Below the pieces are notes generated by a model. That model saw nothing but the letters and a program-made list of their open reading frames with translations. It was not told where the DNA came from and made no database searches. A stretch of DNA of 30,376 bases from a virus: the IMG/VR virus record IMGVR_UViG_3300025889_000621, positions 1 to 30,376 of that record; one strand, written 5' to 3'. The translations under genes and the position numbers were made by a program. Positions 7,003-11,221 of this stretch are shown here, in pieces; position 1 is the stretch's first letter; the number at the start of each line of letters is the position of its first letter.

Positions 7003-7076
7003 ATTACCAAACTATCATAGTATAATAAAATAACCAAAATAATACTAATAGATAAATTACAACAAATAACAATATT

Positions 7077-7105
7077 ATTATATCAAATATTGATATTAAT
7101 GTAAA
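7077..7105 (-). promoter_or_regulatory. Sigma-70-like promoter for the 6466-7002 gene
   Basis: Minus strand: -35 TTTACA (7105-7100), spacer exactly 17, -10 TATAAT (7082-7077), start expected near 7070. The leader to the ATG at 7002 is about 68 bases and almost pure A/T, longer than at the sister promoters. It contains ATG ATA GTT TGG TAA immediately before the start codon, a four-codon upstream frame whose stop is one base from the real ATG. Confidence 0.8.
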
Positions 7106-9528: not shown

Positions 9529-9555
9529 AATTATTTGCTCCCTAATAATATAGAC

Positions 9556-9584
9556 ATTATAACACGATTATTAATTAATGTAAA
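9556..9584 (-). promoter_or_regulatory. Sigma-70-like promoter for the 8425-9528 gene and rnh
   Basis: Minus strand: TTTACA (9584-9579), 17-base spacer with CGTGT at its end, TATAAT (9561-9556). Start near 9549, leader about 21 bases with GGGAG. It begins just after the dsbA stop codon and so can reload transcription of the unknown gene, rnh and the DUF6433-like gene. Confidence 0.85.
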
Positions 9585-9837: not shown

Positions 9838-9866
9838 AATATTTCCTGTTTTCAATTTATGTGTAC

Positions 9867-9895
9867 ATTATATCACGTAAATGAATTAATGTAAA
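9867..9895 (-). promoter_or_regulatory. Sigma-70-like promoter for dsbA
   Basis: Minus strand: TTTACA (9895-9890), 17-base spacer ending CGTGA, TATAAT (9872-9867). Start near 9860, leader about 23 bases to the ATG at 9837 with AGGA. It lies in the 60-base gap between the HNH gene and dsbA, so dsbA does not depend on reading through the HNH gene. Confidence 0.85.
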
Positions 9896-9898
9896 CAA

Positions 9899-10363
9899 CT
9901 ATTTCAAATGTTTTTGAACTGTATGATAATTGACACTATTTTCTTGTGTCGATACCCATCTTAAATTACTAAGTCTATAATTTGATGGATCGTTGTCAAT
10001 ATGATCTATAATATAACTTTTCTGTAATTCCCGTTTAACAATTATAGATGTTTTTAACCATATTTTATATGGTATGTTTTTTGGTCTTGGAAATTTAAGA
10101 AAAACTTCACCTAAAACTCTATGTATTCTAATAGTAATAGGTTTACCATTTTCCATTAATCTAGTATGAGGGTATTGTAAAGCCTTTGGTGCTTTATATT
10201 GCTGAAGTTTCATTTCTTTTAGTTTACCACTTTTATTGCTATAAATCTTACCGGGGATATCACGACCGCGGGGAAGACTAACAAAATAACCATTAATTAT
10301 TCTACCTTGGTATATTACTGGTTTTAAATCTTGGTGTATTACTGGTTTTAAATTTTTTCTCAT
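9899..10363 (-). CDS. HNH homing-type endonuclease, free-standing
   Basis: A 154-residue HNH endonuclease of the HNH_3/NUMOD type. The core reads IRIHRVLGEVFL (His81), then YIIDHIDNDPSNYRLSNLRWVS (Asp120-His121, Asn129, Asn133) and TQENSVN, the usual ββα-metal site with its asparagines. The N-terminus contains a short internal repeat, NLKPVIHQ followed by DLKPVIYQ (positions 4-19), which may be a small in-frame duplication. It lies between the SH3-like gene and dsbA and is likely a mobile intronless endonuclease inserted between conserved genes; dsbA has its own promoter. I found no flanking group I intron. Such genes nick related phages lacking the insert and spread by repair. Confidence 0.88.
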   Translation of the reverse strand: MRKNLKPVIHQDLKPVIYQGRIINGYFVSLPRGRDIPGKIYSNKSGKLKEMKLQQYKAPKALQYPHTRLMENGKPITIRIHRVLGEVFLKFPRPKNIPYKIWLKTSIIVKRELQKSYIIDHIDNDPSNYRLSNLRWVSTQENSVNYHTVQKHLK

Positions 10364-10388: not shown

Positions 10389-10688
10389 TTAAAATTTAGA
10401 TGGGAAGGTTATTGATTTGATTGAATCGAACCTGAAAGATCTCCAGGCTACTTTTTCTATGTCAAAGACTCGCAATGCTTCATCGGAAAAGGTTTTAGTA
10501 GAGCTGGTATCTCCTCCTTTCGGTAATTGTTCTCCGGGAATTCTGGAAGTTGAGAGTGTGCACTGCATTGTTCTCTCAGATCCGTCCCTTTTGGTAAAAG
10601 TAATGCCGACTTCATTCCTTTGTAGGGCCTCTTTAAGTTGTGATTTAAAAGTGTCCGTAGTAAAATCAATATTCTCATATTGTTCCAT
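10389..10688 (-). CDS. SH3-like barrel (DUF2693-type) small phage protein
   Basis: A 99-residue protein. After an acidic helical start, the core is VGITFTKRDGSERTMQCTLSTSRIP, then FDIEKVAWRSFRFDSIKSITF, a pattern typical of the DUF2693/SH3-barrel phage proteins (a strand with FTKxDGxxRxMxCTL and a final WRSFRxDSI). I chose the ATG at 10688 because GGAG sits 6 bases upstream; ATGs at 10700 and non-ATG codons further up have no such site. The family may bind nucleic acid and acts in regulation in some phages, but function here is unknown. A strong two-part hairpin lies 19 bases upstream of the start, so translation may be controlled. Confidence 0.68.
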   Translation of the reverse strand: MEQYENIDFTTDTFKSQLKEALQRNEVGITFTKRDGSERTMQCTLSTSRIPGEQLPKGGDTSSTKTFSDEALRVFDIEKVAWRSFRFDSIKSITFPSKF

Positions 10689-10812
10689 AAAATACTCCAT
10701 AATAAATGCCAATCGTATTCCTGCAAGCACTGCAGGTCGGAAAGATTGGCTTATTCCTCCTGCGCTCGTTTTGAGGTTCCTTACCTAAACCGCCAGTTCG
10801 TCTAAGGCTCAT
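10675..10812 (-). CDS. Possible 45-residue Arg-rich ORF (uncertain)
   Basis: An open frame from ATG 10812 to TGA 10675 encodes a basic peptide with the segment GKEPQNERRRNKPIFP and a single C-x-x-C (CSAC, about 27-30). It overlaps the start of the SH3-like gene by 14 bases. No good ribosome site precedes its ATG. A 16-codon ORF (10852-10802, MDREDWNRDKRYANEP) sits before it in the neighbouring frame and ends at CCU UAG A; a +1 slip there would join both into a 58-residue protein. Rare codons (AGG AGG, CGC, CCG) and the overlapping hairpin argue for an RNA function instead. Listed so the stretch is not treated as empty. Confidence 0.3.
   Translation of the reverse strand: MSLRRTGGLGKEPQNERRRNKPIFPTCSACRNTIGIYYGVFYGTI
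10708..10750 (-). promoter_or_regulatory. Two-part hairpin in the leader of the SH3-like gene
   Basis: On the minus strand GCCAATC (10750-10744) pairs with GATTGGC (10714-10708), and inside it CCTGCA (10736-10731) pairs with TGCAGG (10725-10720) around a GTGCT loop; the two stems are separated by an asymmetric internal loop of 7 and 5 bases. All 13 pairs are Watson-Crick. It ends 10 bases before the GGAG ribosome site of the SH3-like gene and has no U-tract, so it is not a simple terminator. It is much more GC-rich than its surroundings. A cis-acting RNA controlling translation is the best reading. Confidence 0.5.
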
Positions 10813-10862
10813 TTGCGTATCGTTTGTCTCGATTCCAGTCCTCTCTGTCCATAGGACTTATG

Positions 10863-11162
10863 CTACCTATGTTTAGCATTTAATTTTGCAAATTGCTCAT
10901 CCGATGTTAGATAAACTTCATCTGTTGTCAGATTTTGATCATCAAAGATCCAACCATTTGCCTCTAATTCAGCACGGTTACGTGGATCCGCGGTATACTT
11001 ATCTAAGAATAATAATTGTCTTAGAATTTCTTTTAATGGTTGTCCATTCATACCAAGACGGAAACCATAAATGTCTTTATGATAGTCGGATAATGTAGTT
11101 ACTAATTGATCGTAACTATATTGTTTATAAAACTTCAATGATTCTTTTGCACTAAAACTCAT
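10863..11162 (-). CDS. Conserved small phage protein (YHKDIYGFR motif), unknown
   Basis: A 99-residue soluble protein. The segment LVTTLSDYHKDIYGFRLG (about 20-37) resembles a motif I have seen in several marine and T4-like phage proteins of unknown function. The remainder is helical (EILRQLLFLDKY) and ends in a short basic tail (KLNAKHR). It is the first gene after an early-type promoter (11193-11221), with an AGAG-type ribosome site. In T4 the gene before dsbA is the late co-activator gp33 (112 aa); position and size are similar, but I see no gp33 signature and do not assign it. Confidence 0.55.
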   Translation of the reverse strand: MSFSAKESLKFYKQYSYDQLVTTLSDYHKDIYGFRLGMNGQPLKEILRQLLFLDKYTADPRNRAELEANGWIFDDQNLTTDEVYLTSDEQFAKLNAKHR

Positions 11163-11192
11163 AATATATCTCTTATTTCACCAATTAAATAC

Positions 11193-11221
11193 ATTATACC
11201 ATAAAACGTATTTAATGTAAA
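11193..11221 (-). promoter_or_regulatory. Sigma-70-like promoter for the 10863-11162 gene
   Basis: Minus strand: TTTACA (11221-11216), 17-base spacer, TATAAT (11198-11193). Start near 11186, leader about 24 bases. The spacer end (ATGG) departs from the CGTGA seen in most sister copies. A perfect 8-bp inverted repeat abuts the -35 box. Confidence 0.85.

Follow-up and report, generated by a model that had tools for sequence, protein, structure and literature searches.

Hairpins located between the genes of phage and bacterial operons serve as mRNA stabilizers, as processing sites, or as insulators. In Listeria phage PSA, +1 shifts occur in structural genes and give two known products, and in the tail shaft gene the shift takes place at a Pro codon before the stop codon (PMC5009743). 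The +1 shift in prfB requires the sequence CUU UGA together with a Shine-Dalgarno (SD)-like element three bases upstream (PMC12421855). Both types of system bear on a stretch of viral DNA in which, from the letters alone, a structured leader or a +1 frameshift had been proposed between two small genes. Our analysis indicates that the stretch is probably a noncoding intercistronic spacer in the leader of the second gene, WYL_2.

The WYL_2 junction and its insert

The whole stretch of DNA analyzed, IMGVR_UViG_3300025889_000621 (30,376 nt), is referred to as the window, and all noted features are on its minus strand. Those that define the junction are as follows.

10389–10688, minus strand: WYL_2 (Sm-like SH3 beta-barrel) gene, 99 amino acids (Pfam PF10902, PHROG 1086)
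10695–10698, minus strand: GGAG, SD of WYL_2 (from the sequence)
10703–10877, minus strand: lineage-specific GC-rich insert, common only to the window and one other contig (L014)
10708–10750, minus strand: two-part hairpin (7 and 6 perfect pairs), ending 9 nt 5' of the WYL_2 SD
10863–11162, minus strand: 99-amino-acid gene without a known family (the 10863 gene), its C terminus altered by a 152-bp deletion
11190–11221, minus strand: promoter-like repeat, TTTACATTAA-N13-TATAATGTA, before the 10863 gene

The gene described earlier as SH3-like was identified as WYL_2 (Sm-like SH3) through the Pfam profile PF10902 (E value of 1.6e-13; 51.2 bits, above the gathering cutoff of 26.7) and also matched PHROG 1086 (E value of 1.3e-21), while a literature search for WYL_2 in phages gave no returns. 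The features placed at 10675 to 10862 in the sequence-only reading were all present, except that position 10675 falls within WYL_2, which starts at 10688.

The insert was found in just two contigs, the window and IMGVR_UViG_3300020056_000915 (L014), which are 98.9% identical over 177 bases. Its left end is sharp at 10877, and its right end lies at about 10703 to 10690, just 5' of the WYL_2 ribosome site. The 10863 gene is present in eleven viral contigs, several of which have the same WYL_2 neighbor, and the insert is absent from relatives that keep both flanking genes. Searches for DNA relatives of the insert, both among phages and in other parts of the records of the related contigs, gave matches at chance level only. 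The region was confirmed to be unusually GC rich, at 45.7% versus 32.7% across the window, with only 1% of windows equally GC rich.

Codon scores were +0.19 ± 0.18 for in-frame genes and −0.47 ± 0.18 for off-frame sequence; the insert scored between −0.48 and −0.97 across all six frames, like out-of-frame sequence. No protein-family or tblastn relatives were found beyond L014 either, in keeping with the view that the region probably contains no gene. WYL_2, which is also GC rich, itself has a low score (−0.12), and thus a newly acquired gene could escape the codon test. A search of the region for tRNA and tmRNA found none, and an Rfam search with the insert returned chance-level matches only.

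At the L014 junction, a different element of 81 nt is followed by the insert, whereas the window carries the insert only. Alignment of the two showed that 152 bp are missing in the window, with a shared TGC at the joint (window positions 10863 to 10880); the missing sequence extends from within the 3' end of the upstream gene through the entire 81-nt element. As the relatives have both this element and a conserved tail on the 10863 protein (...DPHxxGPGFGEE...), it is the window that carries the deletion. The conserved tail is lost in the window, where the protein ends in AKHR, encoded by the beginning of the insert, whose first 15 bases form the present end of the gene. L014 additionally has, at about 1060 to 1300, a small open reading frame (ORF) with its own promoter-like repeat before the 10863 homologue; this ORF is missing in the window, marking the region as a hotspot of gene gain and loss. 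An HNH_3 homing-type endonuclease gene (9899–10363, minus strand) is inserted between WYL_2 and the next gene and is absent there in L014.

Judging from these sequence comparisons, the insert is an acquisition of one phage lineage, within a variable accessory region. It is possible, though we doubt it, that the insert is a functionless decayed fragment of a foreign gene, or the product of a recombination event, with the hairpin a leftover. Its GC content of 46%, its lack of relatives and its restriction to two contigs fit such an origin, as does a setting that includes the HNH gene, the extra ORF, and the 152-bp deletion; however, searches turned up no parent sequence, and a hairpin of this stability is exceptional for this genome.

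An 81-nt element in related contigs

The 81-nt element, which is unrelated to the window's insert, occurs at the same junction in ten related contigs, directly after the stop codon of the upstream gene. Copies among the ten contigs include the following.

L014, 1751–1831: 81-nt element
L017, 671–751: 81-nt element
L009, 2947–3027: 81-nt element
L042, 2889–2970: 81-nt element

In nine of the ten contigs, the tenth being L014, a T-rich spacer (TTTTTATTATTAACTTGAGGTATATT type) separates the element from the WYL_2 ATG. This A/T-rich spacer spans about 30 bases in the relatives, in which GAGG is kept shortly 5' of the same ATG. The sequence of the element, GUUCUGCGCCACUUAAUA...UCCGCGGGUYAGACUCGACGGAGUYG-UGCAGAAC, is predicted to fold into a three-way junction, and four variants fold alike, with folding z-scores of −3 to −4. 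The predicted fold includes an outer stem (GUUCUGC.../...GCAGAAC), a small hairpin (CGGA/UCCG, or GGA/UCC in one variant) with a loop of variable length, and a further 9-bp hairpin (UCCGCGGGU-YAG-ACUCG-A-CGGA). Variants of the element are 86 to 96% identical, compared with 81 to 96% for the first 225 bases of the neighboring gene, and the element is better conserved than this coding gene in most pairs (96% versus 81% in one pair, and 88% versus 96% in another). Every base pair of the two main stems is the same in all variants; thus, covariation neither supports nor contradicts the fold.

Comparison with Rfam gave matches at chance level only, and the element was found only at this junction; searches of the rest of the window and of other phages gave no copies. 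Candidate copies in L102 and L108 to L114 were rejected as chance matches, and a wider profile search that included the upstream gene revealed no new relatives. This unclassified element, adjacent to a gene for an Sm-like protein, may represent a new family of small phage RNAs; it merits more attention than the insert itself and is the more useful outcome of the analysis. A broader reading, in which unrelated structured RNAs occupy a regulatory slot at the WYL_2 junction and the Sm-like protein might bind the leader of its own message, appears unlikely. If it were true, the slot would be occupied by the 81-nt element in most relatives and by the insert with its 13-bp two-part hairpin in this lineage.

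Short ORFs within the insert

Two short ORFs in adjoining frames were present as the sequence-only reading had described them.

10802–10852, minus strand: 16-codon ORF ending in CCU UAG, judged not coding (codon score, ORF-pair counts)
10675–10812, minus strand: +1-frame ORF of 45 codons, containing a single CxxC and regarded as probably noncoding (codon score, substitutions)

The CCU UAG lies at 10807 to 10802, with 42 open +1 codons behind it. It had been suggested that a programmed +1 frameshift at this site fuses the two ORFs, giving an Arg-rich protein of 58 residues that contains CxxC, a reading that we regard as very unlikely and close to negligible. Although the stop codon and both ORFs are kept in L014, which matches across all 58 residues, the DNA of L014 is nearly identical and so little was free to change; beyond L014, searches of Pfam, PHROGs, phage records, viral contigs, and 84,980 genomes gave no homologues of the fusion. 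For the alternative that one indel elsewhere would restore an ordinary gene, there is no intact homologue to compare with. Comparable +1 ORF pairs number 69 across both strands of the window, and a 58-residue +1 fusion arose in 2% of shuffles of the region. No codon signature was detected, and a good ribosome site is missing for either ORF. Listeria phage PSA is known to shift +1 at a Pro codon immediately preceding a stop codon (PMC5009743), but an AGGGGG-like element of the prfB type (PMC12421855) is absent just upstream. The sequence 5' of CCU UAG, CGATACGCAAATGAG, is without an SD-like stimulator, and pseudoknot-free folding predicted weak local pairing only around the site.

Conservation of amino acids across both frames in divergent relatives, with the stop codon kept, would favor recoding; the single other copy is 98.9% identical, and both substitutions in the insert between the window and L014 change residues of the 45-codon ORF (T>P and Y>H). 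The same two substitutions also change amino acids in the frame of the 16-codon ORF and are silent in that of WYL_2. With two sites, this pattern is only a hint against the 45-codon frame.

The 45-codon ORF could alternatively be a small gene in its own right (MSLRRTGGLGKEPQNERRRNKPIFPTCSACRNTIGIYYGVFYGTI), with its stop codon overlapping the WYL_2 start. This is distinctly improbable. The frame is open, overlaps of this kind are frequent in coupled phage genes, and when the region was shuffled, an ORF of this length arose in only 3% of cases; however, its codon score of −0.40 is like that of off-frame sequence and below that of 99.7% of in-frame windows, it has no SD and no homologues, and both substitutions in the insert are nonsynonymous. 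The usual zinc site has four ligands, which a single CxxC cannot supply.

The silence of both substitutions in the WYL_2 frame, which is open back to 10784, raises the question of whether translation of WYL_2 begins within the insert, e.g., at the GTG at 10730 (MLAGIRLAFIMEYF-MEQYE...), giving the protein an N-terminal extension. Two silent changes of two is a weak signal, as both would be at third positions by chance in about 1 of 9 cases, and the earlier starts are without a ribosome site. Furthermore, in the relatives the protein starts, without the extension, at a conserved ATGGAG preceded by a purine-rich ribosome site, and we consider an extension highly improbable. As an ordinary lineage-specific intergenic insert, this sequence cautions against inferring recoding from short overlapping ORFs.

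The intercistronic hairpin and comparison with known systems

The two-part hairpin was exactly as first described, reading GCCAATC-[7]-CCTGCA-[5]-TGCAGG-[5]-GATTGGC from 10750 to 10708. With an energy of −17 to −18.6 kcal/mol, it ranks first in stability among 6067 45-nt windows of the minus strand. Alone it has a z-score of −3.9, and when the region was dinucleotide shuffled, an equally stable fold was obtained in only 1% of cases. The hairpin was chosen for its stability, and the same energy was reached somewhere in two of four shuffles of the whole 30-kb window. Folding of the whole leader (149 to 203 nt) is unexceptional (z-scores of −0.7 and −1.6). Of the structured leader proposed earlier, the stable hairpin 9 nt 5' of the WYL_2 SD is real. 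The several smaller inverted repeats that had been noted are somewhat enriched, at 10 versus 4.6 ± 2.6. Neither of the two substitutions in the insert falls in a hairpin stem, which says little about stem conservation because the two copies are nearly identical.

The hairpin is followed by AUUUAUUAUGG; as there is no U-run, and no intrinsic terminator was called, it is not a standard intrinsic terminator. The WYL_2 SD (GGAG, 10698–10695) is left open. Structured leaders are not general among WYL_2 genes in other phages (mean z-score of about −0.1 across about 60 loci), and thus a general WYL_2-leader system is unsupported. At this junction, since the hairpin is real and relatives carry a different structured element at the same place, a structured intercistronic region is plausible, and the idea of a structured leader is a possible one.

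The promoter-like repeat is present in five minus-strand copies (637–668, 7074–7105, 9553–9584, 9864–9895, and 11190–11221), located before accessory genes, compared with 0.1 expected in the window by chance, and it occurs in L014 too. After the copy at 11190–11221, no further promoter-like site occurs until 9895, past both WYL_2 and the HNH gene. The copy before the 10863 gene, together with the four others, suggests that a single transcript from the 11221–11190 site probably spans the 10863 gene, the insert, and WYL_2. Transcription from this putative promoter would run through both codirectional small genes, and in the mRNA the insert would form the leader of WYL_2. The 43-nt hairpin would end 9 nt before the WYL_2 ribosome site, leaving it open. 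It may act as an intercistronic insulator, separating WYL_2 translation from the upstream gene, or as a stabilizer that shields the message from exonucleases, and may thereby replace the structured element that other members of the phage group have at the same junction.

We therefore favor, with a probability of roughly 55%, a noncoding insert of one lineage, the hairpin of which would insulate or stabilize the WYL_2 message but may equally be neutral. This explanation is supported by the stability of the hairpin, by the position of the insert between conserved genes and its absence from relatives that keep both, by the WYL_2 start and SD-like purine motif kept right after the insert, and by codon scores like those of out-of-frame sequence in all its frames.

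As in prfB, the first ORF of the pair is short and has a pyrimidine run at its stop codon, but the site is CCU UAG rather than CUU UGA and has no SD-like element three bases upstream. The window also resembles phage PSA in that the stop codon comes immediately after a Pro codon; however, it has two tiny ORFs with no stimulator and no codon signature, and the single other copy is near-identical. The hairpin of the insert differs from the intercistronic hairpins of phage and bacterial operons in that it is without a U-run, is found in one lineage only, and is without evidence of processing, whereas it has in common with them a stable stem-loop between codirectional genes, near the unpaired ribosome site of the second gene.
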